Shown here piece by piece: positions 11,823 through 57,563 of a stretch of 64,000 nucleotides of DNA (positions are counted from its first letter, which is position 1; the number at the start of each line of letters is the position of its first letter). The notes under the pieces are model-generated. The model saw only the letters and a program-made list of their open reading frames with translations, ran no database searches and was not told the origin of the DNA. The translations under genes and the position numbers were made by a program. This stretch comes from Loxodes magnus (taxonomy: Eukaryota > Ciliophora > Karyorelictea > Loxodida > Loxodidae). The stretch lies in contig CAMPDV010000454.1 of NCBI GenBank assembly GCA_946699065.1, forward strand, positions 124,001 through 188,000. Direction: 5' to 3'.

Positions 11823-14051
11823 ATGAAAGCTAGAGAGATCCAAGGAAACTAAATATTAAACAAATCGCTAAAACTAGTAAGAAGGTAGACTCTTAGCAAG
11901 AAAACTAGTAAGCCAGAGTTAAAATTAGATAAGTAGCAGGAAAAAAATCTTGAAAGTGAGATAAATTGAGAATTGTAAGGTAGAAGCCTCAATTTTGAGA
12001 GTAGAACTGACCAGAGTTAACAGGTATTAAAGAATTAAATTAAAATTACTAAGAAAAGAAAAGTATTTCCGTTCATGAAATAAGCTTAGCCTGTCTCTAA
12101 TGATTATTAGTAGCTATCTCTTAGTATTAACTATAAGAATCTATAAATAAATCCCTTACCAGCTATTTCAAGGGTTGAGATAAAATAAAAATAATCTTAG
12201 AGTAGGAAGCTTAGAGCTAGCTTAAGGGAACTTAAAGATGAAAAAGTTTCCTTTTTGAATTAGTCTAGTATTCCCTCCCTTTAAATTGGTGAAAAAAAGC
12301 AGTTGAATCAATCACAATAGTTATTCTAGTTAAAACCAGCCTAGGGGAGTAGCAACAAGAAGATCACAAGCATAATAAATAGAGAGTAGAAAATGAAAAA
12401 TAAATACTCCGCTTCTCCAAATTGACTATAAGGCTATTAATAGAAATAACCTCTTTCTTCTGACTATTAACTAGAGAGCTCCATTTAAGAATCACCTAAA
12501 TTTGGAAATAAAAGATAAGAACCTTTTTAGAAATTAACTGAAGAGCTCTAAAAAAGCCAATTTTAGTAAGCATAAATTTAAAAATTGAGCAGGTCACAAG
12601 TAGCTCCACTCAATAAAGAAGCAGAAACTTCTTTTCTAGATTAGAATTTAAGCTAAGCTTTATAATAAAGCTTAATATACTAAGAAAATGAGGAAAAGGT
12701 TCTAAAAAGGAATAATTCATTGAGCAGTTATTCTAAAAAGCCTATTTAAAAATTTAAAACTATAAACTTTAATAAAGTTTTAGATCAAAAAACTCCAGAA
12801 AACACAAGAAAAAGTTTATATATTTAAAACGATATTTGGGATTAAAAACCAATAGCAGTCAAAAAGACTTTTAACAAGCAAAACTTCGACAAAGAAAATT
12901 TCAAGTTAATATAGAATTTTATCATTAATTAATATAATAAAATTGATATGAACAAATAACAGCCAATCCAAGAACAATTAGAAGAAAAGTAGCAAAAAGA
13001 TGATGAAATATCTTAGGTTTAAAGTAAGATTGAGCAAGAATAAACCTTACTAAATGAAGTTAATATAAAAGAAGAGAGTAAGGCATAGTAAGAAATATAG
13101 TAAAACACTGAAGAATTGGATGTTCTCAAGAAAGAAAATCCTAAAACTGTAGAAAGTTAGAGAATAGAACTATTATAAAAATATTAATAAGAAAATATAG
13201 ACTATGAAAAAGCAAAGAAAGAGAATTAAATAGTAGCTTTTAAATGAATCTTGAAGATTTGTAAGAAAACATTATAAAAAGCGATAAATAATTCTAAAAT
13301 TGATTTAAGTAAAATAATTAATAATTAAAATAGTAATTAAAGTTCACCTTCAATATCATAGTCTAATAATTTACCTCAACCTGAATAAAACGTTGAGGCA
13401 AATAATTAAGGAATTCACTTGAAAAAGATTTTCAACGAACTTTGTACCCAGTTAGTAAAGAATTCCGAGTAAATTCCAGATGCTTTAGCTTTTTATTTTA
13501 ACTTCATTCTCGCAAATCCAACAATCAGATTCCACATCGAAATTCTCACTTCCTTTGAAAGAATTAGAGTGCAGAACTTTTATAATGGATGCTAACTTGA
13601 AATAAAATCGATGCTAATTTGCTTTTTCCTGCTAACGAAATTATTAATAGCTAAGATTCTTTTGAAGCCAGATTAACTCAAGTTATCTATGACTTAATTA
13701 GAGTTAAGATAAAAATAGAATCTTATAATAATAGCGAGCTTGATTCAGTTGCTGATAATTAAAACTTTCTAGATAGTAGATAAAAAGTAAGAAGATGCTC
13801 AATTAATTTAAAATGATATTGATAATGGAAAAAATATAACCTTCAATAGTAAGAATTAAGATGGCATTTCTCACAAGCTATACAACAATTAAAACTTTTA
13901 GTAATTTTTCGATAGCAATCAATAGTGAATTAGTGACATGCAGGATAAATTATTGAACCTAGGATTGTCTATTATAATCTCTTCAAAAAGAATAGTAAAC
14001 AAGATTAACCAAGTAAAGAAAGCAGCAGAAGAAAGCTAAGACATAGTCTGA
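11823..14051 (+). CDS. Z-family protein Z1 (742 aa), in-frame TGA = Trp
   Basis: One frame runs from ATG 11823 to TGA 14049-14051 (743 codons) with four internal TGA. Two of these (residues 475 and 702) lie at exactly the positions of TGA in the paralog Z3, and at the matching residues 470 and 697 of Z2. Residues 1-350 are Ser/Gln/Lys-rich and low-complexity. Residues 350-470 are acidic and coiled-coil-like. From about 530 there is a conserved globular part (IPDALAFYFNFIL, LTSFERIRVQNF) with a hydrophobic patch (SMLICFFLLTKLLIAK). Between Z1 and Z3, substitutions in the region around 13600-13780 fall mostly on third codon positions of this frame, which indicates purifying selection. Family not recognised. 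It may be a host gene family or a mobile-element protein. Confidence 0.7.
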
Positions 14052-16244
14052 TAAACATAAAATAGTATAATATATATTTCATCTCTAAGTTTAAAAGATA
14101 TCTATTAATAAACTTTCTTTGATTCCATTTATAAATAACTGAGATAGTGTCATCTTTAAGATCATAGCTTAAAATTATTAAAGCTTATTAAACTTTATCC
14201 TTTAACATCCTAAATAAAATACTAAAAAGATGACAAAAGTATATTATATCTAGCTTATAATAGAATATCTCTATGCTATACATGCTTATAATATTTTTAA
14301 AAAGCTTAATCGTTCTGCAATATATAAAAGACAATTTTTTATGAAAAATTTAATTTGGCGATGTACAATAAAAAGATAATAAGGTATTTGACGGTAATTT
14401 TTTAAATTAAACATAACGAAAGATAATCAAATAATAAAAAAATAACTAACATCTTTAATTTTTCTCTTAAGTCTAAGTATAAGATCAAGCAAATGATATA
14501 TAACTACAACATAAGCATTAAAACTGGATTTTTAGCTTAATTCTTCCTGTAAAATTAAATTAAGAATGTTCATAACCCAAATTTCTTAAATATATTAAAA
14601 GCTATTAACTTCAATTAGTCACTTTGAAAGTGAATTAAGAAAATAATCATAATCAAAAAAACTGACAATAAGACTATTTAATTAAGCAGAACAGCAATTT
14701 AATTTAATTTTTAGTCATAGAAATGAATTCATTAGTCTCAGTGTTTATTATATAAGATCTCACTAATAATTTAAGTAAATAACTAGAAACTTGAATATTG
14801 CTTCTCTAATACAATTAAATTTCTAGAAAAGGAATAGAAAGTTCTATCAAGACTGAAGATAATGTGATTATATCTTTATAGGAAAAAATTGTAGACTGTT
14901 TATCTGAGAACAGGAAACTGGAAATCCTTAAAAAATAAGAAAAAGGAAAATGTTGAAAATAAGCAGCAGAATATATTATATATCGAAGAAAATTAATAAG
15001 AAAAAGCTTTAATAAAGTAACCAGAAATAAGAGTTGCATTGGATTTATTTTTTAATAATTATAATATTCATTAAAGCCTTAAGACAGTTTAAATGATTTA
15101 TTATACCAAATTTTATAAATCTGAATGTAATGTTTATTTAATTTAATATTGACCAAGTTGAAAATAGTCCTATTTATATTTAATTATAGCATTAAATCCT
15201 TATTAAAGCTATAAGTCTAGATACGTCTATTTACTATCTTAGAGTAATTATTTTAAAAGCTATGTTTCTATTTAATTTTGCAATAGTTATTGAAATTCAA
15301 ATAATTTAGATTGAAGCTTAATTTTCAAGATATGTATGTTTTAATAAACTTAAATAAAGAAGCTGAGTAATAACTATTGAAATATAACACCTAATTTAAA
15401 CTAACTAAATTGAAAAAAATAAAAGCAGTTAAGGATTCAATGATTAAATCTGACAAATGAAGGTAATAACTAAAATACTATATCAGAAGAATCTTAAAGA
15501 GAATGAAATATCTAAAAGAGGAAAATAATTATAAAATAGTCAATTATAGTTTAAGCTTTATCTATCTAGGTTATCATAATTAGAACTAATTTTAACCATA
15601 TAATCAAGAATAAACATAAATTTTAAACATTTTAAATAAAATAGAAAAATAATAAATCAAAGGTAGATAAAAGAATTTTAGGATGCTTAAAGGATAAAAA
15701 ATAATAATTTAAGTTAAAAAAATAGGAGTTTTAGTCAATAAATTTAAATTTATAATTAAGTGAAAGATAAGCAAGGCACACTGGTAAAATTTAAACTTTA
15801 AATAAATTTCAAAATGCATATCTAAACTTAAAAACCAGATTAAGAAATTTAAAAACAGAAATGAACAGTTTAAAATAAAAATTAAATTAAATAGTAGTTA
15901 AGGAAATAGCTTCCACTTATTATCTTTAATAATTCTAATAATTATATTTTCAATATCTATTCTTCACATAATTTTATATCATAAATAAATAATTTTGTCT
16001 CTAGAAGCACTATCTTTCAAATTTTTTCTCACATAATAAGTAATAAAATGTATTTCAATAAATAAATTAACATGGTACCATCATTATTGGAATCACTAAT
16101 ATTAAAAAAGAAGCTAAGTTTTATTGCTATTAATCTTCTAGTAATATTTCTAATTTCACTTGGTCTCTTTGACTATTTTTTTCTCCTTCCTTTAAATTAA
16201 ATTTGATTACCTTCTTTATCTAAATATTTGTGATTTTTTCTTGT
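14052..16244. other. AT-rich stretch after Z1, no confident gene
   Basis: Weak similarity to the sequence downstream of Z2 (about 46150-46260) shows that the duplicated unit extends beyond the ORF. A Trp-containing open frame continues through much of it, but I cannot show that it is coding. Confidence 0.3.
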
Positions 16245-16559
16245 AGTTCGGAATTAGAAGGGAATAGGGAAAATTCGGATTTTGTGTTAAATAGCACATA
16301 TAATTAAATCCTTCTAAATCAAAATTATTCCTGGTTCCTGCCAACTTACTGACATATGAAGACAGAATAACTCTAAGACCTGTACTTCAATACTCTCTAA
16401 TTAACTTCTCATACCACTAAAGAGAACTCTCAAATAAGTAAGGCTTATCACAAAAAAAGCCCGTCTTTAATTATCTGTGGCGATTTCTACTACAAAAGTA
16501 ATTGGATGCAGTCTAAATTGCACTGAATTACCTACTCGGCTAAACTAGGATAAATTGTC
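16245..16559 (+). mobile_element. LINE apurinic-type endonuclease fragment
   Basis: With TAA/TAG as Gln, this frame contains SLIICGDFYYKSNW. It resembles the conserved GDFN catalytic block of the APE-type endonuclease at the start of LINE ORF2, preceded at the expected distance by a PTY...FNTL segment. No reverse transcriptase follows, so it is a fragment. The call rests on this one motif; chance similarity is possible. Confidence 0.4.
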
Positions 16560-16764
16560 CATTTTAAATTATAAATAATTTAATGAAAGTCTAAATAAAA
16601 CATAATGAAATGAGAAAATTACTAGGTTAATTTACAATTTATTGTAATTATATGCATTTAATATGGGATATGATAATCTACTCATCAATCATAAAAATTA
16701 AGCAATATTAATTTACAAATTTTTGTAATGTAATAAATTAGTTATTATATATATAATAAAATTA

Positions 16765-17195
16765 ATGCCGGATGCGATCAGAAGAACTAGTAGGTAATCT
16801 GGTGCAATGTTTACGCCATTGTAAGTAATCTCGCACTAGATTTCATCGCAGGGAAGGGTGAACAGGCTCGGAAGAGACAAGCCTAACTTACTCTGGGGTT
16901 CTCGCTAGCAAAATGAAAGTTTGAATGACGGGCCTACTGATGACCTAATAACTAATTCTTATATGGATCTTATTCAAGAAGACTGAAGCATTTGACTCAA
17001 GATTTAAGAATAATTTTTAATAAGAAGATTCCCTATTTAGAATTTGGAGAAGCTGATATGACTCATTGGACTTCTAGAATTTTAAAAAGAAACATGAGAA
17101 CATTTTTCTTAATATTAAATATTAATATTGAAAGAGCTGCACGCCAATTAGGTACTACATGCTCCAAAATGATCTTTATTAATCTCTTTATTTGA
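16765..17195 (+). CDS. Y-family upstream gene, copy Y1a (appears interrupted)
   Basis: The ATG at 16765 opens a less AT-rich frame (MPDAIRRTSRQSG...NESLNDGPTDD). A second frame continues the homology (NNQFLYGSYSRRLKHL, then TQDLRIIFNKKIP, GEADMTHWTSRIL, RTFFL). The same peptides occur in copy Y2a near 36880-37120. Y2a lacks a few bases in one place and has extra bases in another, so each copy helps define the true frame of the other. The first frame ends at a TGA at 16984-16986, about 4 bp out of register with the second. Family not recognised. It may be the 5' part of the downstream Y gene or a separate mobile-element gene. Confidence 0.5.
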
Positions 17196-17639
17196 TTTTC
17201 TAAATAAAGTAAATGATAAACTTTTAAATTAGACTTATTTAAATTAATTATCTTTATAATAATGTAATAGACAATTAGATATAAACTTATTAAAACTAAT
17301 ATGAGTCTTTCTAATTTTAATGAAAATTAGTTTATTTTTATTTATATAAAAGTATTTAAATCTAACCTTTGTTTTTAATATTCTAAATGGTTTTAATATT
17401 TTTCCAAATATTCTAGAAATTATTTTCAAAATATTGATCAAATAATTCATATACCTCTATCTTTTCCACTTTAAAAATCGGAATTTTAATACGTAAGAAT
17501 AAAGTAAAGCATTTTAAATTTTGACTTAGAATATAATAAAGGAATTAAATATTAGTTTAAAGAATAAGGATTATTAGTAAATATCTAAAGCTTATTAGCA
17601 GATTAGAGTGGTACTACTATTTTTGCTATTATAAGTGCT

Positions 17640-18550
17640 TTATAGTTATTTTATTAGCTAGAACGAAACATATCTAAGTTTGCACCAATATCGTTTTAGA
17701 AAATGAATAATCTCTATACACTCCTTAGTTCAATTATTTCTTTTATTTATAAGGTTTTTTATTATTCTGATATCTTTCTTGAGCCTTTTAAGTTAATAAA
17801 GTAAGTTAGATAATTGTTGTCTATAAGAAGAAATGTAATGAAGGTCTATTTTATTTAAGTGGGTAATAATTTATATACTAAACCTACTCAAAATATTTCT
17901 AAGTTATGAGTGATTGTTATGCTAGCAAAAAGGATAAAATAAAGTATTAATTTCATTCAATAATTATTAGAATACATCTATTTACACTTTTACTCTGTAA
18001 AGGAGCATTAATATTACGTAATTAAACTAAGCCATCTAAATTCATATCTTATAGCAAGATTTATCTAAATTAAAATTTCAGTATTATTGATCTAAATAAC
18101 TCAATTCCCTATAAATCTAAAAATCGCTTTTTATTAGTATGAAGGGGAAATAAGGCTACATTAGATAAAATAGTAAGTGAGATTTTAAAAGATATAAATA
18201 AGAAAAAATCCATTTTATATAATAATTTCTTCCTTACTCTTTATTTATATCATTAGCATAAATTTAGTTCTCTAAACAGCTAAAATTAAAAGAGATTATA
18301 CTCTTACAGAGCATTTGATCAAGATTAAATTGATAGAATTATAAAGGATTACTCTACTATATGGTAATACATTGCTTAGTTTTAAAATTTTTGTCTTATC
18401 ACTCTTAAATTGTCTTACTTACCTAAAATAGAAAAATCTTGGATCTAAATATGAGAAGATTAATAGTATTTTTAATCTATTTAAGACATTAAGATTTTTA
18501 TAGAAAAACTAATAGACAACAAAATAAGAAAATAAAAGCTTTTAAGCTGA
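17640..18550 (+). CDS. Y-family protein, copy Y1b (start uncertain)
   Basis: Plus-strand frame ending at TGA 18548-18550. It has hydrophobic segments at the start (FFYLQGFLLFWYLSW), a shared motif WAFQVNK, a Lys-rich middle and the stretch FLLVWRGNKATLDKIV. Copy Y2b (38122-39255) has WVFQVNK followed by a similar NE-L-YL spacing, and a third, partial copy sits at 49399-49758 (WSFQVKP). Internal TGA codons fall where Trp fits. The start is not visible and the 5' limit given is approximate. Function unknown, with a probable membrane-associated N-terminus. Confidence 0.45.
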
Positions 18551-20564
18551 TCAAATGTATAACTCAACAAAGAGAGTAATTCTAAGAAAGACTTATAATC
18601 AAAGATTTCCACTTATTTTTAAAAATCAGTTTTTATCTTTAAGATACTCTTCTTTTAACTTTTATATACTAATAATTATATATGGGATCAAACTTTCCAT
18701 TAAAAAATCCTATAAAATTATAATTTTTTATCTTAAAAGATTAAAAATAAAATTTTCAATTGATAAGTATAAGCAACTAAAATTATCTGAGACTTTAAAT
18801 ATTTACTCCAATTGAACAGCTGGAATTTTATTATTATCTTCTATTTTTTAAACTTACCATTATTACTCATTTATTACATTTATTTTCCAATTAAAATAAA
18901 TTAGATGTGCTATTTAATTTATACGACTGTGTTGTAAGCTTTATCATTAAATTATTGCCAAAGAATTGTCATTTATAATATCACTAAACTATTTTATGAA
19001 GATTTCTGCTTATATATAATTGAGTTGAAGACATTAGAATGCTTAAATTATTTTTACTATTTCATAGAGCTATAGAGTTTAGTGTCTATTATTTAGGTTG
19101 GTTATTTAAAGCTTCTAAAATATAAAAATTAAAATCTTAAGAATATAATGCTTCTTAGCCTTCTTGTGGATTGATTTTTATCAGTAACTATATGATTATT
19201 TACTCTTATCTAGTTAAAAAGATACTTGCATTAGAATTAATGTAATATACTATAGAGTTAAAATAATAGAAAGAAACTAAAAAATTATATTTCTAGGAGT
19301 TATAAATGGAATGCTTAAGACTCTTGAGAGATTTCTTCAATATGTTTAGGAACTTAACTTCTGATCTAAGTTATCAAATGATATCATAGTTAATTACCTT
19401 ATAAACCATATAAAATAATAAATATCCTTGCTATTTAATATTACCATGATCTTCAACAAATCCTTAAAGATTCGAAATGTTAATCTTAGGATCCTTTCGT
19501 TACGTTTTATCTGACTAAAATGGTAATTTTTTAGTTATTTATCAAGTAAATTTCTAAAACCTTGGCAATAAAATGGAAATTAGAGTGTAGGTATGCTAAA
19601 AAGTGAAGTGATAGAAGTTTAATTTCCTTGATCAAAAATAAAAAGAAAACCAAAAATGTAGAGTTAGCGATAGAGTAATCATTTCTATTTATTTATCTTT
19701 AATTTAAAGGATACAATTCCTATAGTCTTAAATTCTCCCTTCAAAGTAGATCTTCTATTTCTTCTATTATCCTTAATGTCCTTTTACTTATTTAAGTAGC
19801 TTTCTTTTTTATAAAGCTTTAAATATTTTTTCTTAGCTGTATTAAAGTATCTTTGATAAGGATTTAAATGCAGTACATTAATGTTTAGCACTTTAAGGTA
19901 TGCCATTTAAATATTAGGAACTTATTTATAATGCTTAAGAAATATTTGTATTTAAGATAAAGGGAAATTAAATTCTCACTCTACTTCTAGAAGAAAAAAG
20001 GTAAATTTTAGAATAATTAAATGAGCATATATCAGAGAAAGTGAGCTAAAGACTTTTTTACCTATGATAAGACTTTCAAATAGGAACTAATATCAACACT
20101 ACTATGTATTAATTAAAAACAACACTCTATATATATTAAAGTATACTGATACTTCAGGAAACTTTAGCTGAATTTTTAGAAGCAGAAAATAATAATTATG
20201 GTTTAAGGTACCTGATACCCAAATTAACTTATTAAATTCTCTATTTTAATATGGAAAGCTAGCTATTCATTAACTAAACAGTTTCTCTTAATAATTGAAA
20301 GAAAACAAATAAGCAAGTATTAAGTATATTAATTAATAAAGGTAAAATTGCTTATGGCTTTATAAAAGCTAAAGTAAAAATGTTTTATTAGCATTCATTA
20401 ACTTTATATATTCTTTTAAATTAAACGTTAAATTAAGAAACAGACAAACTCAATTATTTCTAGTTTATACCATCCTGCTTATTTTAAATAAAAGCTTAAG
20501 CATTTACTGGAAAATGGATTATAGCTTTAATAGTTTTTTTAAAAGCTTGAAAAATACGAAAAAA
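18551..20564. other. AT-rich stretch, no confident gene
   Basis: Between the Y1b gene and the large gene at 20565. Open frames exist but are compositionally ambiguous. Confidence 0.3.
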
Positions 20565-22559: not shown

Positions 22560-25658
<3,099 letters not shown>

Positions 25659-25713
25659 ACAGTGTTTTTATTTTAATTTATTAAAATTGGATTTAAAATA
25701 AATATTTTTCAAA

Positions 25714-25787
25714 GGTTCATGGCGCAATGTCAGCGTAATGGACTTCAGAAAGGTTGGGGGTTCAAGTCCTCTTTATATATTGTTTTT
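25714..25787 (+). pseudogene. degenerate tRNA-Trp(UCA)-like segment with pol III signals (spacer 1)
   Basis: It has an A-box-like TGGCGCAATG (majority form TGGCGCAGTG), a D-arm-like GCGC...GCGT, an anticodon-loop-like CTTCAGA with UCA in anticodon position, a B box GGTTCAAGTCC inside a T-arm (GGGGG/CCTCT) and a T5 run at 25783-25787 as in pol III terminators. The layout follows eukaryotic tRNA-Trp, but the 3' half of the anticodon stem is missing and the 3' strand cannot pair with the 5' acceptor strand, so it cannot fold as a normal tRNA. A UCA anticodon would read UGA, the Trp/stop codon of this code. Whether it is transcribed is unknown. It may simply be a tRNA fossil captured in the unit. 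Confidence 0.55.
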
Positions 25788-25816
25788 GAATTAAAAATAA
25801 AAAAGATGACAAAGGA

Positions 25817-25824
25817 TGACGTCA
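25817..25824. promoter_or_regulatory. TGACGTCA palindrome (CRE-like) upstream of Arf, repeated in every unit
   Basis: Perfect 8-bp palindrome matching the cAMP-response element bound by bZIP factors in other eukaryotes, 145 bp before the Arf ATG (146 in copies 7 and 8). It recurs at 26669, 27520, 28370, 29222, 30074, 30926, 31779, 32632 and, without a gene behind it, 33483. Perfect conservation follows from overall unit identity, so function is not shown. That it is a promoter element is inference. Confidence 0.35.
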
Positions 25825-25961
25825 GATTGTACACGATTATCTTAGATAAAATATGTAATTAAAAAATCTAAATAAAAAGGTCTAGAAAAATAGAAAAAAA
25901 GAATCCAAAAGGTGATAAAAAGTGATTTTAAAAGAGAAAAAGTATTGAATATAATAAAAAG

Positions 25962-26510
<549 letters not shown>

Positions 26511-26565
26511 ACAGTGTTTTTATTTTAATTTATTAAAATTGGATTTAAAATAAATATTTTTCAAA

Positions 26566-26639
26566 GGCTCATGGCGCAGTGTCAGCGTAATGGACTTCAG
26601 AAAGGTTGGGGGTTCAAGTCCTCTTTATATATTGTTTTT
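26566..26639 (+). pseudogene. tRNA-Trp(UCA)-like segment (spacer 2)
   Basis: Majority form beginning GGCTCATGGCGCAGTG, with B box and T5 run. Confidence 0.55.
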
Positions 26640-26813
26640 GAATTAAAAATAAAAAAGATGACAAAGGATGACGTCAGATTGTACACGATTATCTTAGATA
26701 AAATATGTAATTAAAAAATCTAAATAAAAAGGTCTAGAAAAATAGAAAAAAAGAATCCAAAAGGTGATAAAAAGTGATTTTAAAAGAGAAAAAGTATTGA
26801 ATATAATAAAAAG

Positions 26814-27362
<549 letters not shown>

Positions 27363-27417
27363 ACAGTGTTTTTATTTTAATTTATTAAAATTGGATTTAA
27401 AATAAATATTTTTCAAA

Positions 27418-27490
27418 GGTCATGGCGCAGTGTCAGCGTAATGGACTTCAGAAAGGTAAGGGGTTCAAGTCCTCTTTATATATTGTTTTT
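27418..27490 (+). pseudogene. tRNA-Trp(UCA)-like segment (spacer 3, variant)
   Basis: Variant with one base fewer at the 5' end (GGTCATGG) and GGTAAGGGG before the B box. Same variant as at 33381. Confidence 0.55.
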
Positions 27491-27664
27491 GAATTAAAAA
27501 TAAAAAAGATGACAAAGGATGACGTCAGATTGTACACGATTATCTTAGATAAAATATGTAATTAAAAAATCTAAATAAAAAGGTCTAGAAAAATAGAAAA
27601 AAAGAATCCAAAAGGTGATAAAAAGTGATTTTAAAAGAGAAAAAGTATTGAATATAATAAAAAG

Positions 27665-28213
<549 letters not shown>

Positions 28214-28268
28214 ACAGTGTTTTTATTTTAATTTATTAAAATTGGATTTAAAATAAATATTTTTCAAA

Positions 28269-28340
28269 GGTCATGGCGCAGTGTCAGCGTAATGGACTTC
28301 AGAAAGGTTGGGGTTCAAGTCCTCTTTATATATTGTTTTT
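28269..28340 (+). pseudogene. tRNA-Trp(UCA)-like segment (spacer 4, variant)
   Basis: 5' variant as at 27418, but GGTTGGGG, one G shorter, before the B box. Confidence 0.55.
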
Positions 28341-28514
28341 GAATTAAAAATAAAAAAGATGACAAAGGATGACGTCAGATTGTACACGATTATCTTAGAT
28401 AAAATATGTAATTAAAAAATCTAAATAAAAAGGTCTAGAAAAATAGAAAAAAAGAATCCAAAAGGTGATAAAAAGTGATTTTAAAAGAGAAAAAGTATTG
28501 AATATAATAAAAAG

Positions 28515-29063
<549 letters not shown>

Positions 29064-29118
29064 ACAGTGTTTTTATTTTAATTTATTAAAATTGGATTTA
29101 AAATAAATATTTTTCAAA

Positions 29119-29192
29119 GGCTCATGGCGCAGTGTCAGCGTAATGGACTTCAGAAAGGTTGGGGGTTCAAGTCCTCTTTATATATTGTTTTT
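29119..29192 (+). pseudogene. tRNA-Trp(UCA)-like segment (spacer 5)
   Basis: Majority form. Confidence 0.55.
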
Positions 29193-29366
29193 GAATTAAA
29201 AATAAAAAAGATGACAAAGGATGACGTCAGATTGTACACGATTATCTTAGATAAAATATGTAATTAAAAAATCTAAATAAAAAGGTCTAGAAAAATAGAA
29301 AAAAAGAATCCAAAAGGTGATAAAAAGTGATTTTAAAAGAGAAAAAGTATTGAATATAATAAAAAG

Positions 29367-29915
<549 letters not shown>

Positions 29916-29970
29916 ACAGTGTTTTTATTTTAATTTATTAAAATTGGATTTAAAATAAATATTTTTCAAA

Positions 29971-30044
29971 GGCTCATGGCGCAGTGTCAGCGTAATGGAC
30001 TTCAGAAAGGTTGGGGGTTCAAGTCCTCTTTATATATTGTTTTT
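29971..30044 (+). pseudogene. tRNA-Trp(UCA)-like segment (spacer 6)
   Basis: Majority form. Confidence 0.55.
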
Positions 30045-30218
30045 GAATTAAAAATAAAAAAGATGACAAAGGATGACGTCAGATTGTACACGATTATCTT
30101 AGATAAAATATGTAATTAAAAAATCTAAATAAAAAGGTCTAGAAAAATAGAAAAAAAGAATCCAAAAGGTGATAAAAAGTGATTTTAAAAGAGAAAAAGT
30201 ATTGAATATAATAAAAAG

Positions 30219-30767
<549 letters not shown>

Positions 30768-30822
30768 ACAGTGTTTTTATTTTAATTTATTAAAATTGGA
30801 TTTAAAATAAATATTTTTCAAA

Positions 30823-30896
30823 GGCTCATGGCGCAGTGTCAGCGTAATGGACTTCAGAAAGGTTGGGGGTTCAAGTCCTCTTTATATATTGTTTTT
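30823..30896 (+). pseudogene. tRNA-Trp(UCA)-like segment (spacer 7)
   Basis: Majority form. Confidence 0.55.
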
Positions 30897-31071
30897 GAAT
30901 TAAAAATAAAAAAGATGACAAAGGATGACGTCAGATTGTACACGATTATCTTAGATAAAATATGTAATTAAAAAATCTAAATAAAAAGGTCTAGAAAAAT
31001 AGAAAAAAAGAATCCAAAAGGTGATAAAAAGTGATTTTAAAAGAGAAAAAGTAGTTGAATATAATAAAAAG

Positions 31072-31620
<549 letters not shown>

Positions 31621-31675
31621 ACAGTGTTTTTATTTTAATTTATTAAAATTGGATTTAAAATAAATATTTTTCAAA

Positions 31676-31749
31676 GGCTCATGGCGCAGTGTCAGCGTAA
31701 TGGACTTCAGAAAGGTTGGGGGTTCAAGTCCTCTTTATATATTGTTTTT
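31676..31749 (+). pseudogene. tRNA-Trp(UCA)-like segment (spacer 8)
   Basis: Majority form. Confidence 0.55.
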
Positions 31750-31924
31750 GAATTAAAAATAAAAAAGATGACAAAGGATGACGTCAGATTGTACACGATT
31801 ATCTTAGATAAAATATGTAATTAAAAAATCTAAATAAAAAGGTCTAGAAAAATAGAAAAAAAGAATCCAAAAGGTGATAAAAAGTGATTTTAAAAGAGAA
31901 AAAGTAGTTGAATATAATAAAAAG

Positions 31925-32473
<549 letters not shown>

Positions 32474-32528
32474 ACAGTGTTTTTATTTTAATTTATTAAA
32501 ATTGGATTTAAAATAAATATTTTTCAAA

Positions 32529-32602
32529 GGCTCATGGCGCAGTGTCAGCGTAATGGACTTCAGAAAGGTTGGGGGTTCAAGTCCTCTTTATATATTGTTT
32601 TT
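32529..32602 (+). pseudogene. tRNA-Trp(UCA)-like segment (spacer 9)
   Basis: Majority form. Confidence 0.55.
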
Positions 32603-32776
32603 GAATTAAAAATAAAAAAGATGACAAAGGATGACGTCAGATTGTACACGATTATCTTAGATAAAATATGTAATTAAAAAATCTAAATAAAAAGGTCTAG
32701 AAAAATAGAAAAAAAGAATCCAAAAGGTGATAAAAAGTGATTTTAAAAGAGAAAAAGTATTGAATATAATAAAAAG

Positions 32777-33325
<549 letters not shown>

Positions 33326-33380
33326 ACAGTGTTTTTATTTTAATTTATTAAAATTGGATTTAAAATAAATATTTTTCAAA

Positions 33381-33453
33381 GGTCATGGCGCAGTGTCAGC
33401 GTAATGGACTTCAGAAAGGTAAGGGGTTCAAGTCCTCTTTATATATTGTTTTT
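33381..33453 (+). pseudogene. tRNA-Trp(UCA)-like segment (spacer 10, variant)
   Basis: Variant identical in its differences to that at 27418. Last copy before the array ends. Confidence 0.55.
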
Positions 33454-33544
33454 GAATTAAAAATAAAAAAGATGACAAAGGATGACGTCAGATTGTACAC
33501 GATTATCTTAGATAAAATATGTAATTAAAAAATCTAAATAAAAA

Positions 33545-33900
33545 TTTATTTTTTACTCTTTTTTTTTCTTTAGATTAATTTTACTTTTTTTTTTTTTTTT
33601 TTGCAACAATTGATTTTTTAAATTTTTGTTTTCATTTCTTTATATTTTCATTTTATTATTATTTTTCTTTCTAGCTTCGATCAATTTTCTACTTTCTATC
33701 ACATTTTGCTTTAATTTAATTTTTAATTTATTTTTTTTTTCAAACTTTAGATTCTTTTTTTATCTCTTTTTCTTTATTTTTTTCTTTTTTTTAATCTAAT
33801 TTTTATACTTTATTTTTTCTTGATTGATATTTTAACTTTAATATTTTTAGTAGTTTTTTTTTCATCTCAATGCAAATTAATTTTATTCATAATCAAAGAT
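33545..33900. other. strongly T-rich tract after the Arf array
   Basis: Long T runs, including a T run of about 20 near 33583-33602, and almost no A runs on the plus strand: a sharp strand asymmetry starting exactly at the end of the array. On the minus strand it reads as Lys-rich codons and may be the 3' part or 3' UTR of the small gene that follows. Confidence 0.6.
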
Positions 33901-43931: not shown

Positions 43932-46133
43932 ATGAAAGGCAGATAAACCTAAAAAATCAAAAAAGCACTTTAGTCTATGAAGAAATTGAAGTAATAGTTG
44001 CAAATCTAGAAGATTAGTAGTATAGAGTTAATAATAGATAATTAGAAGGAAAAAAATCCTGCAAGGAAAACTAATAAAAATCCATAAGGAAAAGTAATTC
44101 CTAAGAGCAAAATTGATTAAAGCTTTTAGATATTTAATAAATAAAATGGAAAAACTTAGAAAAGAAAGTAAGTTGCTTTAAAGCAAATAACTTAGTCTGA
44201 TTCAAATGATGTTGAAATGCTATTATAAAGTACAAGCAAGCAGAGTATGAATTATTTACCTTTGCCAGACATAAAAAGCAATTTAACTCCCTAAAATATT
44301 AGCAAAAGGAATAATTTTTGAGATCTTAATGACAAAGAAAGCTCTATTTTAAACTAGACTAATTAGAACTACGTTCAGATAAGCGAAAAAAAGTAGTTGA
44401 ATTAGTCTAATTCCTCATTCAAAATATAATCTGTTGAAACCAATAAAAACAGAAAGATCCAGAAAATAATAAACAGAGAGCAAAAAATAAAAACTAAATA
44501 CTCAGCTTCTCCAAAGTAACTTTAAAGGCATTAATAAAAAAAAAAACTTTCTTTCGATTCTTAAGAAGAAAACCTTTATTAAGAATCTTCCAAAGTGAAT
44601 AATAAAAGGTTAGAAGAATCTTCAAAGTAATCCTATGAAGGGGTTTAGAAAAATCCACTCACTCATACTTAAATGAATTAGTTATATAGATCACAAGAAA
44701 ATATGTTCTATAACGAAACAGAACCATCTAACTTAGAGTAGAGTCTTTGCTAAGATAAAAAATAAGTATAAGAGTCTAATTTTAATAAAAATAAAGTTCT
44801 ATAAAGAAATTAAACTTTAAATAGTAATGCAAAATAAACTAACTAAAAGATTAAGAATTTTAGTCTTTTAGATGAATCAAAGAAAAACAATCTAGAAAAG
44901 CTCTAACAATATTAGCAGGATAGTGATATTTAAGAGTAAAAGTAAAAAATAATTAAAAAGATTTTTAACAAGAAAAACTTTGATAGAGAAAACTTCAAGT
45001 TAATATAGAATTTTATAGTTAATTAATACAACTAAGCTGATATTAACAAATGAAAATCAAATAAAATATAGTTGGAAGAAAAATAACTAAAAGATGATTA
45101 AAAACTTTAAGTTTAAATCAAGAATGTCTAAGTACAGAAATTACCTAACGAAGATATAATAAAATAAGAGGATGAAATTTAATAAAAATTCTAGAAAAAT
45201 ACAGAAGAGTTGGATATTTTTAAGAAAGAAAATTCAAAAGTTATAGAAAATTAGGGATTAGAGTATCTAAAAGAATATTCATACAAAACCATAGACTATA
45301 AAAAAGCAAATTATGAGAACTAAATAGTAGCTTTCAAATGAATCTGAAAGATTTGTAAAAAAACGTTATTAGAAGTTTCAAACGATCCTCATTATGATTT
45401 AAGGAAAATAATAAATACTTAAAATATTAACTAAAGCACATTTTTAGTATCTGCTCATGGAAATCAAGATAAAAAATAATCTAAACATGAACAAATTAAA
45501 TAAGAAGATTACCTAAAGCAAATAGTGAATGAGATCTACGACTAATTAGCAAAATTATCTGAGCAAGTACCATAATCTTTAGCATTTTATTTTATTTTCA
45601 TTCTAACTAATCCAGAAATCAGATCCCAAGTAGAATTACTAACTTCCTTTGAAAGAAATCGTGTGCAGAATTTTTATCATGGAAACTAATTTGAAATAAG
45701 ATCGTTGCTTATTTGTTTTTTTCTGATAACAAGACTATTAATAGCAAAGATGCTATTAAAGCCAGATTAGCTCAAATTATCTAAGAATTAACTTAATTTA
45801 CGATAAAAATAAAATTTTATAGTAATAGCAAGCTTAATACAGTTACTCATCATTAAAACTTTCTTGTTTGTTGGCAGAAAAGAAGCAGATGTCCAATTAA
45901 TTTAAAATGATATAGCCTGCTCAAATTATATAACTTCTAATAGTAAGAACTAAGATGGAGTTTCTCATAAGTTATATAACAACTAAAGTCTTTAAAGGTT
46001 CATCATCAATAATGAGTAATGAATTAACGAAACGCAGGAAAAAATAATGAACTTTGGGTTTTCAATTATAAAAACTTCAAGAAGAATAGTGAACAAGTAT
46101 ACTCAACTTTAGAAAGTAAAAGAAGAAAGCTGA
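43932..46133 (+). CDS. Z-family protein Z2 (733 aa), in-frame TGA = Trp
   Basis: Second member of the family. One frame runs from ATG 43932 to TGA 46131-46133 (734 codons). Plan as in Z1: a Ser/Lys/Gln-rich N-terminal half, an acidic middle (EELDIFKKEN), then the conserved part (LAFYFIFILTNPEI, LTSFERN, LLKPDQLKLS, NSKNQDGVSHKLYNN). Five internal TGA codons. Those at 45339 and 46020 (residues 470 and 697) match in-frame TGA in both paralogs; one where Z1 has TAA is specific to this copy. Z2 lacks TGG codons, so TGA appears to be its Trp codon. The terminal TGA follows EES, as the Z3 terminal TGA follows DKS. Family not recognised. Confidence 0.7.
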
Positions 46134-47193: not shown

Positions 47194-48426
47194 ATGTATA
47201 TATTTAAATAATAAAATAAAGATAGTGATTCATAGATATATTTAAATTAAATTCCTTTTGAAAAGAGTAAAAGCACATTAAATTTTAGTTATCGAGATAG
47301 AAAGGGTTTCTAAATATCTCAAATTAGAAGTCAAACTCTATTAGAAATATCTAAATATAGCATTAAAATTGGAAGAAATATTTATCGAATGCTAGAGGGA
47401 GAAAATTTATTTCGAAGAACATTTAAACCAAATTTAAAGTTTAATGAAATCTATTTGATCATAACTTCAGATGCTGATTGAAAATAATACGAACTTTATC
47501 AAGTATAAAAATATTCCATTCTATTTTAAAATTAATTCTATCTTATAGATATTTAATATAAATACTATGCATATGAAAATCAAAATTTCTATTAGTATGA
47601 TTAAAATATTTGGAATGGAGGAAAAAAGATTTTATTAGTGCTAATAATAGATTTAAATTGTCTTAAAGAAATTTAATTTTATATATAAATCCTTATTTTC
47701 TTTTTTAGTTACTTTGGAGATAATATGATAACTTCTTATGTCATAAGTACTAACCACTTTAAATTTCTTGCTAATGAATTTTTTTAGGAATTCAATTATC
47801 ATTCTGATTAACAATTTTAAGAAGCATTCTTTATGATATAATTATGCAAATTAATAGCAAAGCATTTCTCTTTTATAGTTTAATTTATAGAGTATTAGCA
47901 CCAAGATATTGAAGTTTAGTCATTACTTCTTGCTATTTATTTATCTTTTTTAAATAAATAAAGCATCTTCATTCTGGTTATTCTATCTTCCTTACTTTTT
48001 CATTATATTTAGATAATAACTTAGATACATAAATCTAAGTTCTATTATATATTTTAAAAGATTATAAAAAGAGTTATAGTATAAATTCAATTAAACTTGC
48101 TTCTTTTAATTCTTTAGCAAAGCTCCTCATTTATCAATAACCATATTTTCTTATGTATAGTGCTAAATATCCTAAAATAAAACTAGGCTCTTCTTATTTT
48201 TTATAAATAACCTATTTTCTAATCTATGTTAAAATTACTTCCTTCATTCTATTTTTTTAAATTAGCAAATTTAGGAGATAAATCAATATATCAGATAAAA
48301 TAGTTAGTTGCTAGCTAATTTTATCAATAAATAAATATTTTAAATCTAAAAGGATTGTAATCAGTTCTGAAAAGTGAAATAATGAGTAGCTCAACTAAGG
48401 AATAGTTAAAAGAGTATAGCATTTGA
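47194..48426 (+). CDS. unknown protein (410 aa), one internal TGA
   Basis: ATG 47194 to TGA 48424-48426, 411 codons with a single internal TGA (SDADWKQYE). That is far fewer than expected by chance in this base composition, and the reading looks coding: DSDSQIYLNQIPFEKSKS, YRMLEGENLFRR, SYFGDNMITSYVIS, NEFFQEFNYHSDQQF, KSEIMSSSTKEQLKEYS. The C-terminal third contains hydrophobic stretches (FILVILSSLLFHYI). No family recognised. A short piece just upstream may belong to it through an intron. Confidence 0.55.
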
Positions 48427-49398
48427 ATATTTTAATATCATATAGATTTAAATCTATTTTGGTTTATATACTTTAGAATTTTAAATTATTCTATAAGTAT
48501 ACTAAAAATATAAAACTAAAGCTTAATAATCTTTGGATAAAATTAAGATTTATATTAACTATCGAAAATTAAAGGAAATAGTAATTATTGTGGATTGCTT
48601 TTTATTATATATTTAATATATTAGAGAGAAACATGTGGAGAGTAAATGTAGAGGCTTATAAATGAATTTTTCACTTTTTAAAGCTAAACGGTTTGAGAGT
48701 ATTGAAGCTTTATTCATACTAGTAACTATTAAAGTATTAAAATAGTGAGGATATTAGAACTTCACACTTTGCAAGTTTGAGAAGAATTACCTTAATTAAT
48801 TAGAAGTGAAAGAATATCAGGTCTTTTTGAAATATTTTTCACTAGGAAAAAGTTTTACTCTAAATATTTATGAAAGAGTAATAGTTTTAAAAAATATATA
48901 AGCTAGATATGTCAAACATTCATCAAGGTAAACTAAATTAAGTAAATTTTCTATAATTTTTTCAGGAAAAAAAGATATTATAAATGTATAAAGTGAATAT
49001 TATCCTAATTATTGATATTTCTACTTTTAATCCAATTTAAAAAAATCAATCTAAGAATACCCAGAAATATTAATAATCGATTGAAAGCAGGAATTTTAAC
49101 TCTAATTTTCAAAAGAATTTATATTTATTATATTATAAGTTTTATAAATACCGTCTAGCATACTAAGTATTTTTATGTATCATTCTATTTATTATCAGTC
49201 TAAAATAATGATAATATCAAACACATTAAATTGCTTATTTTCAAGCAAAAACTCTAATAAATTTAAATATAGTAATCATTTTATTCAAAGCACTAATGGA
49301 GTTGATTTACTAGATTAACTTTTTTAACGAGTTTTCTCCATTATATCTATTGATGTTTAAGTTATTGAATTTTCGCATTTTTTAGATAAAGAACATCC
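48427..49398. other. possible diverged coding, unresolved
   Basis: Around 48630-48900 two overlapping frames both look LRR-like (FHFLKLNGLRVLKL; FASLRRITLINQK). Without a second copy to compare I cannot choose, so no gene is called. Confidence 0.25.
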
Positions 49399-49758
49399 TG
49401 GTCTTTTTAAGTTAAACCGATTCAGAGTTAAATTTAGATAAAAATAATGAAACTTAATTTTAAATGAAGTTAGCAAGTTTATATTTCTTGAAATATCGCA
49501 ATCAAATAGCTTATGAATGAAGTTATTTATAAAATTATAAATTATTAAAAATTACTTATTAAAATCAAGCATTAGAATGACTAGTGGATCGTAAAGCTAT
49601 ACCCTTACTATCCTTATAATTAATTAGCAGTTATTAATTAAGTTTACTTGTAGTAGGGAACTTTTTATTTCATTATTAGGAAGATATTTATTAAACTGGT
49701 TATTTTTATTATTCCCCTGCTCTGCTCGAAGCTTTTCCTAATTTTTTCATTAAGGTGA
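49399..49758 (+). CDS. Y-family fragment, copy Y4
   Basis: Frame beginning at a WSFQVKP motif like the WxFQVNK of Y1b and Y2b, continuing MNEVIYKIINYQKLL and YFIIRKIFIKLVIFII, to TGA 49756-49758. Shorter than the other copies and without the upstream Y gene, so probably a fragment. Confidence 0.3.
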
Positions 49759-50569
49759 AATTTTATGATAGCAGTATACTACAAACGTAAAATAATTGGC
49801 TAATGTTGAATTTTACGATTTTTCCATTAGCATAATAACTATTTAAGCATATAACTCATTTTATTTTTCTCTTGTTAGTTAAATAAAAGACAGATAAATA
49901 TTAAAAATGAAGTTGCTAGAACGCTAATTTTTCACAAACAAGCGTAAAAAGATAAAGAAACAGAAATTGCTTATATTGCTCTATAATTTTTTTCTTTAAA
50001 AGCTAAGAATTCTAATTATTTAACAGTCTCTTAAGCTTAAGAAATGATTTCTTAATTTTAATAGCTATAATTCTTTATCCTCACTAATTTAAATAAAAAT
50101 CATTTTTATAAATCTAAAGATAAACTTTTAGATTTTTTTTATTAAGCTTTGAATACTTAGTATATTAGACTAGTCCTGATTATAATCATTTTTTCATCTT
50201 CGTTTCTAATATATTGAAATAATCTCTTAAGAGCTTTAAGCATTCCTTTTATAACTCCTAGAAATATAATTTTTAAGTTCTATTCTGCTATTTTAACTCT
50301 ATAAAAGATTAGATATATTTTAAAGCAAATATGTTTCAATATGCAAGAATAAATAGTCTTATAGTTTCTGATAAAAATCAATTCATAAGAAAACTAAGAG
50401 GGATTCTATTTTTAAGGATTTAATACTTTTTGGTCTCATAATCAAAAGCTGTAAATTATTAGTCTAAATATTAGATACTACGTTCTACGGTCCTTTAAAT
50501 AGCAAAAATGAAATTAGCATTCTAATTTCTTCTATACAAATACTAATAAAAAATTACTTGCTTTATTTT

Positions 50570-51395
50570 TGGAGGTATTTCAACCTCTTTCCCGACACAC
50601 TTTAGATTGCTCTTGAGGCTAAGTATAAAAGCTTGAAAGATTGTAAAACTCTTTTTCTTGCTATGAATATGGCTTTAGAGGTATTCTTTGGCCTAGATAA
50701 TAATTGGTAAATGTTTCCAAATTTATTTCAATATATTCTTTCTCTTTTTAGTTATATCTGATGAAATATCTTTTTTCACCAACTTTTTCTAATAATTTCA
50801 GTACTCTTATTTAGAGTTGTAAACTTTCTAGTATCTTTTTCACAAATGCGTATGAAAGTTACAGTAATAGCATTTTTTTCTCTTTTATATTTGAATCTTT
50901 AGCTTTTTCTCCTTCGATTTTCATTGGATCATTTCCTTATTCTTTTAGTACCATTTAACCCTGCAAATTTTGTTGATTTTCTTCCATTTTTTCTATCTTT
51001 TTGTTAATTTCTTACTGCTTTTATTGGGATTTTATTAATGACTGTTATGGTCTTTTGAATTATTTCAGTAATACCTAAGGCCTCTTTCTTAGGTTATGAG
51101 TTTATATTCTATTTCAAGTTTTTCCATTAATCTCTTATTATTTTTCTTCAGTTTTATGACCTCTTCCTTGAGTTCTAGCACCACTTTTATCAGCTAATCA
51201 TAGTTTATTTCTGCTCTGTTTTAAAATTCGAATTTCTGAGTGCATAATATTTTTAGCCTATTCCTAAGCTTTGCTTTAAGCTGAAACTCTCAATTTGGTG
51301 GACGGTCTTTTAGAGTTTTTTCCTGGTCCTAGCTAGGATGTTGTCAATTCCTGTTTTTGAAGCAGCGAAAAATCCTGATCTGAATCCTGAGATTT
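50570..51395 (-). mobile_element. gag/ORF1-like retroelement fossil (minus strand)
   Basis: Third element of this type. On the minus strand it has an acidic and basic coiled-coil region (LELKEEVIKLKK, LMEKLEIEYKL) followed by a diverged zinc knuckle beginning CYYC. It resembles the other two in plan, with no reverse transcriptase visible. It looks broken, with a few breaks and a degraded knuckle, so it is probably an older copy. The SINE-like repeat at 51456-51955 lies directly next to it. Confidence 0.5.
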
Positions 51396-51455
51396 TAATT
51401 TAATTTATTATTTTATATTCAATTATACAGGATACTTCTTAAAAAATAATTTAGA

Positions 51456-51955
51456 TAAATAAATAAATAAATTTGATTATAGAGCGCGTAGCACCCTCAT
51501 TGGTGCCCAGCTCTTTAAAATAATGTTTCATACTGACAAGAATGTTTCTTACTGATAAAATTATCAGATACTGATAGACCTTGTTCAATACTGGTATAAT
51601 TATTCAGTACTGATAAAAATGTTCAATACTGATATAATTTTAGAATACTCGTAATCTTTAATACTTGTTGGAGGTTCAAGGACATGGCAGGATTGTGTCT
51701 CATTGCATCACCAAAGCAGAGGGCGACATGTGTCAATTATGGGTACTTAAATTCCCCACCTCAGATGAAGCTCGCAATATTATTTCTTTTTCGTTCCAGA
51801 ATTAAAAATAAACGAAGCCAAATTAAGCCAGTGCCGAAGGTCTAAGAATCTTATGTCTCGAGGCCAAACCAAAGAGAGGAAGACATAAAGTCGATTATGG
51901 AAAATTAACTTCCCCAACCTCTGATGAAGATGACCTTGTTGCTCACCTTCGAACA
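51456..51955 (-). mobile_element. SINE-like repeat, copy 1
   Basis: ~500-bp dispersed repeat, less AT-rich than its surroundings. In element orientation it starts near TGTTCGAAGGTGA, has two diverged tandem copies of a ~150-bp block (each with CTTCATCAGAGG, TACCCATAAT and CCTCTGCTTTGGT, though the last motif is lost from one block here), a ~20-bp minisatellite (TATCAGTATTGAACATTTTT-like) repeated about six times, a terminal hairpin (AGAGC..GCACC..GGTGC..GCTCT) and a (TTTA)n tail. No protein-coding capacity is seen. The tail of simple repeats and the small size suggest a LINE-mobilised element. No clear tRNA head was found. Confidence 0.65.
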
Positions 51956-54900
51956 ATGAATAAAGCAATATTAAAAAATATTATATAATAAAAATTGATA
52001 ATTCTTTGGCAGTCATTTAATGAGAAAATTTTACAATATTGCTGTGTAAATTAAATATTATACCTACTTCTTTTGAATCGATAAAGAAATATGATAAATA
52101 AATAATATGGGATATTAAGAAACTAGAAAATAAGAATAAGCTTTGAACTTTTCATTAAAATAAAAATTCCATTTAAAACATTACTATTTTTTATTTATTT
52201 TAAGCATCCTTAAAAGATTTAGATAATTATACTAAACTGCAATAAGGTTTTTAAACAGATGATGTCACTTATAATTACCGTTTCATCTAAAAAAATTAAT
52301 TGCTAAACTTCTATTATTTTAGCTAAACACAAAGAGCTAGATGATCTAAAAGGTTTACTTCTACGACTCTACAGATTCTTATTTTTATTTTAACTAATAA
52401 ATTTTAAAATTTTCCTATATTTTTAACTAGCTTATGTTTTAGAGCAATCTAGATAATATAAAAAATAAATATGAATATGAAAATAATTAAAATGAAGTTA
52501 GGAGAAAAATAATAGGATACAACATATAAATAGTAACTATTGATTTAAAATATTAAACTTATATTCTAAATATTTGTGATTTATTGATTCTAAATTTATA
52601 ATATAATTAAACATTCAACTATTATATAACTACTACTAGCTACCTTTCTTCTCTATATTCATTTATAACCAATTTAAAATTTCGTTGTTATTTTATGAAG
52701 ATTAAATATTTTCAAATATTATTACAAAGAAAAATTCTTAGTTTTTTCGTTTTAGCAGGATAATTAATTAGAAAGCACTTAAAATAATATAAATATCTAA
52801 TTTTATTTAAACTATAGTAACTACCTTTATATTTACTGATTCATCCTATTTAATTCCTAATGTTTATTAAGTGATTATTTGAAGTTAACTTTATTTATAA
52901 ACTTTTATATTTTAGAAACCAAAGTGAAAAAGTAGAATAAGCTAATTATTTGGTATAGTTAATTTAATTACTTTCTAATATCTTTTTCAGAAACATCTTA
53001 AACTACTTTTTAAGTTGGAAGATAAAGTTAGAATAAGAGCTATTTAGCATAATAAATCCTATCTCTTTTATTAAATTAATGCTAATTATAAGTATTTTAC
53101 TAATAATTTTGCTATTTTGCTATAAAGGCAAATATATTTAGTTAAGTTTAGTTGAAATCACTTTAGTATTTCCTTAGATCAGAATTTAGAATATCATTAC
53201 ATGTTCATTATATTAATAGCATGTTAAATCAATATAGTAAAATTTAGCTTTTATATAAAAAGAAAACTATTATATCTTAATAGGTTAGTTGCTATTAAAA
53301 ATAAAAACAAGGAAATTAAAATCATTTAATTTAAAATCCAAAATTGACTAAAATTAATTATTTCTAGCCTAAATCATTTAGTTCCATTTTCACATAGTCA
53401 TTACTAAGGATTTATTTTTATTAGATTGCTTGTATTAGTTTTTTTCTTATTTTAAATAAATAATTGCATAAGATGTTGTCTTTTAGAAGAATAGTTATTT
53501 ATCTATAATATAGATATATTTGAAATTTAGTATTACAATTGAAGAATTTAACTTTATTTTAAATTAAAAGCTAAAGTGATATCCTCTACTAATATCAATA
53601 CTAGCACTACTTGCTATTTTATTTTTTGAATAAATTAAATCTAATTTTCATCTTTATAGCCTTATATTTTAGCTAGACATAAGTAAACTTGATCTGTCTT
53701 ATCAATTATGCCTTTCTTTTATCTGATATTAACTATTAGTTTCAAATTTGTTAGAAATTATTCCAAGATATTTTTGCAACTAATGATAGTTCTTTAAGCT
53801 TATTGTGAGGTTTTTATTTTTTTATTATACTCTTTTATCTATTTTATTTAGCAAGTTTCGAGTTTAATAGTTGGGTACTTTTTAAAATCTTGCAAGTGAT
53901 AAATCATGAGTAAAGCAAATTCATATCTTATTCAATTACTTTATTATAAATTTTCTTTCTCACATCAGTCTAATCCAATTAAGATTTGAGGCTTTGATAC
54001 ATTTTTAATTTCTAAGAATTAGATAGTTAAATATTAGCTAATCTCATATAAAGTTTAGCTTTTATAGTTGGCTGCTCTTTTTTTAATTTTATTGCTTAGC
54101 TACTTTATTTAGCTTTATTAATACATGCATCTAATATAAAGTTAACTAAACATTTCTTAAGCTTTTAATAAATTTTTCAATATGTGATTTTAAAATGCTT
54201 TGAAAGCTAAAATCACTAATTTAAATAAATATATATATCCAGCTTTTCAGCTTTGATAAGTATCTATTACTCTTAAATTAGATTATTACTACTAGGTATG
54301 TGTTGTAAGATAGTTATTACATTGTATATATAATTCATTGAAATAATCCTTTTAAATCTTCCATTATTAGATGATAGTTTGTCTTAATATACTATAAAAG
54401 CTGATTTTCTTAAATATTTTCTATTTAATCTTTTTTCTTCATCTTAAGCTCAATTTCAAATTTTTGCTTTTATAACTTTTTTAAAATTTCTAGTATTATT
54501 TTCTAAGATAACCTTGCTTTATTTTTAAATAAGATATAAACAAAATAAATTTAGATTAGACATCATTTTATAAATCCTATACCAGATTAAATTAGACAGT
54601 AGCACAATTAAAACCTCTAATAATTTACTTTATTTATATGGAGATCTTATATATAAGAAAGCAGAGACCTAGTAAGTTTATTTCTATAAATGCTCAGATA
54701 ATTAGAATGAAGTCCATCCAAATTATAAAAGCATTTAGCAATTAATTTTCATTATATTTCTTAATTTAGTTCAGAGTCACTAATTTGAAGATAATAGCTT
54801 CTTTATTACCTTAACCAAATTAATTTTCTAGTATTTTTAATTTTCGCTCTCAAAGAGGTAAAAATCTAAAGTTTCTCTATCTTTATAAATATAGTAATTA

Positions 54901-55346
54901 TATCATAAGACTACTCTTATTTTAAGGCTTTAAGGAAAATTAAAATATTAGTTAAATTTTGAGAAATTGATTAACTTTCGTTAGATTGAAATTTTTTATA
55001 GCGTAAATATCTTATTATCTTTTCACTAGAAGGAAATAGTTCATTATTATACAAGAAAACGATAGACCTAGTAAAGATATAAGAATCATAATAAAGTATG
55101 AACTAGATCTATTATAGCTGATGTATAATATGCTATAATTATACTTTTATACATCTTTAACTATTTTTACATTATATTGTAAGACTGCATTATAGTTAGT
55201 TTGTTACTATTTCTTAGTTTGTAAATAAAAGAAAGCCAAATTTATATTGGTTACTTATAAAACAAAAGCAGATGAGTTTATTAATAGTTACCATAAAAAC
55301 AAAAGATTAATAACTAATAATTTATTGAATCTAAATAGTCTGTTCT
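51956..55346. other. AT-rich stretch, no confident gene
   Basis: 3.4 kb downstream of Z3 (minus) and beyond the SINE-like copy. I recognise no motif, tRNA or duplicate. Confidence 0.3.
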
Positions 55347-57563
55347 TCAGCTTTTATCTATTACTTTCTATACTTTATTAAATTTGCTCACTACATTTTT
55401 CGAAGTGCTTATAATAGACAATCCTAAATTCATCAGTTTCACCTGCATTTCACTAATTCACTACTGATTACTGTCACAAAACTTCTATAAGCTTTGATTG
55501 TTATATAACTTATGAGAAATGCCATCTTAATTCTTACTATTACTAGTTAAATAATTTCCACTATCAATATCGTTTTGAATTAAGTGCTTTTCTACCTAAT
55601 TTCTACCTGCTATCAAGAAAGTTTTAATTATTAGTAGCTGTATTAAACTAGCAATTACTATTAGATTCTATTTTTATCTAAATCCAAGTTAAGTCTTAGA
55701 AAGCTTAAGTTAATCCGGCTTCAAAAGCATCTTTGCTATAAATAACTTTGTTAATAGGAAAAAGCAAACTAGCATTGATTTTATTTCAAGTTAGTTTCCA
55801 TGATGAAAGTTCTATATTCTACTTTTTTCAAAGGAAGTGAGAAATTCTATGTGAGATTTGATTGTAGGACTTGCAATGACGAAGTTAAAATAAAAAGCTA
55901 AAGCATCTGGTATTTATTCGGAATTCTTCATTAGTTGGGCAAAAAGATCGTTGAAAATTTACTTCAAATGAATTTCTTAATTATTTGGTTCGGATTTTTA
56001 CTCTGATTAAGATAAAATATTAGACTATGATATTGAAGTTAAATTAGAATTACTATCTTGAGTGATGGTTATCTTTCTTAAATCTATGTTAGAATTATTT
56101 ATCACTTTTTATAATGTTTTCCTACAAATCTTTAAAATTCATTTGAAAGCTACTATTTAGTTCTCTTTCTTTGCTTTTTCAAAGTCTAATTTTTCCTACG
56201 AATACTTTTTAAACAGCTCTATTCCCTAACTTTCCAAAATTTAAGGACTTTATCTCTTTAAAATATCCAACTCTTCAACATTTTTCTAGATTTCTTATTA
56301 AGCTTAATTCTCTTCTGCTATATTTTCTTATTTTGGTTGATTTTATTCTTATTCACTCTTACTTTAAACCTAAGATATTTCATCATCTTTTATCTATTTT
56401 TCTTCCAATTGTACTTGGTCTGGTTCTTATTGGTTTAAGTCTATTTTATTATATTAATCAATAATAAAATTCTGTATTAGCCTGAAATTTTCTCTATTGA
56501 AGTTTAGTTTATTAAATTTCTTTTTGAAAATTATTGGCTTTTAGTCTTTAGTGTCGCTTTAATTCTTTAAACTTTGATTTATTTTTTCTGGAGTTTTTTT
56601 ATCTTACATTTCATGGAAGTTCGCAGTCTTAAATTTTTAAATATGAGTTGAAGATTTGCTGCTTAAGGTTTAATTCCTGCATAGATTCTAATTTTAATTT
56701 GCTTTTGATATTGGGCTTTATTATATAACTTAGCTACAATTCTAATCTAAAAAAGAAAAATCAGATTCTCTTTAGAAAATAACTTGTGATTTGTTCAATT
56801 TTTAGATTTAGGTTTACTAAAAAGGGCTTTTTTTTAGTTCTTCAGCTAATTTCTAAGAAGATTCAATACTTCTAGTAGGGATTTATGGTGATTTTTGAAA
56901 ATAGTTCTTTATTTAATAGTCAGAAGAAAGAAACTATTTCTATTAATAGCCTAATAGTCAATTTGGAGAAGCTGAGTATTTATTTTTCATTTTTAGCTCT
57001 CTATTTATTATTTTTGTTATCTTCTTGTCTTTATTACTCTCAGCAGGATTTATCTAGGCTGTAGATTTTGAATAAGTCATCTACTTTTTTTCACTATTTT
57101 GATGAGAAGGAATACTTGACTAATTTAAAAATGAAGTTTGCTCTTCTTTTAATTCTCAGCAGCTTGTATTAAGTTTACCATTCTAGGCATTTGCTTCATT
57201 TTTTAAAACTCCTGAAATAACTGGAAATGGAATTGTATTTAGACTCTTTTATTTATTATTAAAAATCAGCAACTAATAGTCATTTGAGTCTGTTTAAATG
57301 CTTTGCTTGAATGAAGTAACTTTTCTTTTCTAAGTTTATCCAATTTGCCTGCTGAATATAGCCAAACTCTGATCAGATTTATTCTCAAATTTAATTCCCG
57401 TTATTCTTTATAGCTTTTACTTCGCTTCACCTATAAGAGCATTTTCTAGCTGTTTTCCTATTTTTGATTCTGGCTTACTAGCTTCCCTGCTAAGAAGCTT
57501 CCTTTTCACTAATTTTAATGACTTAGACATATTTTAATTTTCCTAGGACTCTCTAGCTTTCAT
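55347..57563 (-). CDS. Z-family protein Z3 (738 aa), in-frame TGA = Trp
   Basis: Third member, on the minus strand. ATG at 57563 (MKARESQEN, as MKAREIQGN in Z1), TGA at 55347-55349, 739 codons with four internal TGA. Those at 56139 and 55458 (residues 475 and 702) match TGA in Z1 and Z2, and that at 56958 (residue 202) matches Z1 residue 201. The conserved C-terminal half (DALAFYFNFVIASP, LLKPDQLKLSKTQL, NSKNQDGISHKLYNN) aligns with few gaps. The N-terminal Ser/Gln/Lys-rich half is more diverged. No TGG was found in the frame. Family not recognised. Confidence 0.7.

Follow-up and report, generated by a model that had tools for sequence, protein, structure and literature searches.

Evidence for TGA as both tryptophan and stop codon in a 64-kb stretch of the Loxodes magnus genome

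Introduction

How can one codon stand for an amino acid within a gene and also end that gene? The question is raised by a 64,000-nucleotide stretch of the genome of Loxodes magnus, a ciliate of the karyorelict group (positions 124001-188000 of contig C454, hereafter the window). It holds three related genes, Z1, Z2 and Z3, whose frames run through TGA codons (Table 1). A first-pass annotation of the raw sequence proposed that TGA means tryptophan (Trp) inside these genes and stop at their ends, and that TAA and TAG mean glutamine (Gln), the Loxodes-type code of karyorelicts. Searches of the assembly (705,730,643 bases in 7,843 contigs) bear this out: judging from sequence comparison, the code in use is very probably NCBI table 27, with TGA as Trp within the Z genes and as stop at their end (probability roughly 0.97). 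Such a dual-meaning code is already published for karyorelicts including Loxodes and is therefore known, not new. The point of interest is the blind recovery, from 64 kb of raw sequence, of a rare nuclear code that gives a single codon a sense and a stop meaning; the standard translation table is unusable for annotating genes of this assembly.

The meaning of TGA, TAA and TAG

The frames of Z1, Z2 and Z3 align without gaps at columns 475 and 702, both of whose flanks are highly conserved. When Z relatives are aligned, TGA and TGG replace each other in the conserved columns of the family, and the two are likewise interchangeable at conserved columns of protein kinases. With TGA itself masked, the columns that contain it are enriched 268-fold in Trp, 2.8-fold in Phe and 0.6-fold in Cys. 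These figures stand against a reading of TGA as another residue, be it Cys as in Euplotes or selenocysteine, which is a general possibility with nothing further to recommend it and has the least chance of all the alternatives considered here.

Conservation of the Z genes stops at their terminal TGA. Among the genes whose ends were looked at TGA is the sole stop codon, none terminating with TAA or TAG, and sense TGA is depleted directly upstream of the stop. In-frame TAA and TAG number 70-78 per Z gene; both copies carry a Gln codon in 167 of the 318 aligned pair-cells containing at least one TAA or TAG, Gln being assumed in this count and no other residue compared. The proposed Gln assignment fits these data.

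Comparison with known codes

Table 27 is given for karyorelicts including Loxodes in PMC11441545, which reports L. magnus assemblies of 706 Mbp (macronuclear) and 848 Mbp (micronuclear) and describes UGA as the only stop, with a second meaning, Trp, where the poly(A) tail lies at a sufficient distance downstream. The window shares with that code TAA and TAG as Gln, TGA as Trp inside genes and stop at their end, and the absence of sense TGA directly before the stop; no difference from that code was found.

Condylostoma magnum, with table 28, has a context-dependent UGA, Trp or stop, and no tRNA-Trp(UCA) was found there (PMC4967479). Might L. magnus use that code? Its sense assignments are identical, but in C. 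magnum TAA and TAG also terminate, which they do at no L. magnus gene end looked at, and we consider this very improbable. In Blastocrithidia (PMC12153298) UGA is likewise Trp, read by a tRNA-Trp(CCA) with a 4-bp anticodon stem, whereas UAR is Glu and UAA is stop.

Pseudogenes, introns and points against table 27

The Z copies could instead be pseudogenes whose premature TGA codons were inherited from one dead ancestor. Decay probably does occur within the family, because four (L007, L063, L066 and L067) of 28 Z-like loci that were looked at match only in pieces lying in two or three different frames. The first-pass annotation had linked this explanation to a ratio of nonsynonymous to synonymous substitution (dN/dS) near 1; the overall value for the Z copies is 0.34-0.36, and there is very little room left for it. 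The four split-frame copies sit on contigs C454 and C14, close to intact copies.

No more plausible is a Tetrahymena-type code (table 6), with TAA and TAG as Gln and TGA as stop only, under which each Z frame would be several genes or would lose its TGA codons with short introns. Introns of L. magnus are short, 19.3 bp on average (PMC11441545), but the gap-free alignment at columns 475 and 702, the high conservation on either side and the presence of TGG at those columns in Z relatives, as in the kinases, all speak against excision or separate genes.

Some results weigh against table 27 itself. Over the last 36 Z codons alone, dN/dS is indistinguishable from 1. Patterns for tRNA-Gln(UUA) gave 12 matches against 9 in a backward control, no clear excess, and those for tRNA-Gln(CUA) one against six, no excess; readers of UAA and UAG were therefore not found by pattern. 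The first-pass annotation had also proposed looking for a tRNA-Trp(UCA). None of nuclear type was seen in a pattern search, as distinct from a whole-genome tRNA scan: there were 16 matches against 7 in the backward control, and neither plain ARAGORN nor Rfam recognised a tRNA in any of the 12 that were checked.

tRNA and release factor

The tRNA, release factor eRF1 and codon-choice data offer concrete starting points for explaining what keeps the sense and stop meanings of UGA separate. A pattern for tRNA with anticodon CCA matched the assembly 127 times, against 12 in the backward control; the places listed are arrays on contigs C67 and C148, plus one each on C12 and C20. ARAGORN finds 48, 31 and 36 tRNA-Trp(CCA) genes in three stretches (L058-L060), 115 in total. 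In all 115 the 27-43 pair at the top of the anticodon stem is mismatched, as A.C in the 48 copies from C67 and T.C in the 67 from C148, leaving a stem of 4 bp, and the Rfam tRNA model flags the same pair as non-standard in a C67-type copy (L014). The arrays lie at C67:482323-491201 and C148:155464-174300, with units of ~187 and ~241 bp; the 115 copies are those of the three stretches covered.

Inspection of eRF1 was also proposed at first pass: the copy at C196:19713 reads NIKSRAVQKA, with Ala at the position that is Ser70 in other eRF1 proteins, and has FxCxxxF instead of YxCxxxF. The motifs were read in this copy, another eRF1 match lying at C196:54613, and Ser70 follows human numbering.

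A tRNA-Trp(CCA) with a 4-bp stem is described as a UGA reader, its occurrence in Loxodes being credited to Swart et al. (PMC13092985), and PMC12005148 gives the same account. Ser70 and YxCxxxF are among the stop-recognition motifs of eRF1, and Ser70Gly is tied to UGA readthrough in Blastocrithidia (PMC12153298); Ser70 is thus changed in both organisms, to Gly there and to Ala in L. magnus. For termination at UGA, a model of poly(A) proximity has been put forward (PMC4967479). We infer that the tRNA-Trp(CCA), eRF1 and poly(A) proximity may act in these ways in Loxodes.

Codon choice by gene class

The Arf genes of the window, each encoding a GTPase of 182 amino acids, use only TGG for Trp and TGA as stop in all nine complete copies, confirming the contrast originally drawn with the Z genes. 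Units of this tandem array (window 25000-33700) are 97-100% alike save for a truncated first copy, and show strong GC skew.

For actin, in-frame TGA occurs in none of the best 44 of 96 matches and in nine of the next ten (1-4 each), with a mixed picture further down; for tubulin, it occurs in none of the best 30 of 150 scored matches and in nearly all of the other 120 (1-3 each). The ranking is by match score, not expression level, and the contrast represents few independent genes, since the top copies differ little in score and are probably near-identical. Reassigned codons are reportedly avoided in highly expressed genes of Blastocrithidia (PMC12153298), a further likeness; for Loxodes, no such statement was found in a term search of PMC11441545 or in literature listings, which lacked the 2022 karyorelict paper.

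Canonical actin and tubulin are both amplified: some 40 actin copies are full-length and score nearly the same (contigs C266, C711, C524, C707 and C437), and C64 carries 21 of the 30 best tubulin matches. This is possibly gene dosage achieved through genomic copies, a reading suggested because the macronuclei of karyorelicts are no more than paradiploid. Two side leads are codon choice by gene class and the large tRNA-Trp and housekeeping arrays.

Features of the window

For the Z proteins themselves the closest candidate family is RasGAP (Pfam PF00616): two distant Z relatives, L080 (30.3 bits) and L081 (29.7 bits), exceed its curated cut-off of 28.3 bits.

Table 1. Coordinates of the Z genes, their in-frame codon sites and the Arf array in the window
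Feature	Position	Strand	Remarks
Z1	11823..14051	+	single frame, ~740 codons if TGA sense; ends in TGA
Z1 codon 201	12423..12425	+	third in-frame TGA site
Z1 codon 475	13245..13247	+	in-frame TGA; conserved columns
Z1 codon 702	13926..13928	+	in-frame TGA; conserved columns
Arf array	25962..33325	+	nine complete open reading frames, 852-bp tandem units; five Trp all TGG, stop TGA (UGG-only contrast)
Z2	43932..46133	+	single frame, ~740 codons if TGA sense; ends in TGA
Z2 listed codon site	44319..44321	+	
Z2 codon 470	45339..45341	+	in-frame TGA
Z2 codon 697	46020..46022	+	in-frame TGA
Z3	55347..57563	-	single frame, ~740 codons if TGA sense; ends in TGA
Z3 codon 702	55458..55460	-	in-frame TGA
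Z3 codon 475	56139..56141	-	in-frame TGA

Codon use is also coding-like at 7024-8268 on the forward strand, where two TGA and three TGG occur and no Pfam model reaches a score beyond its cut-off. A 38-bp (2 x 19) minisatellite recurs at 51530-51639, 59901-60036 and 61688-61872, embedded in a repeat of ~310 bp whose inverted copies are 96% alike.
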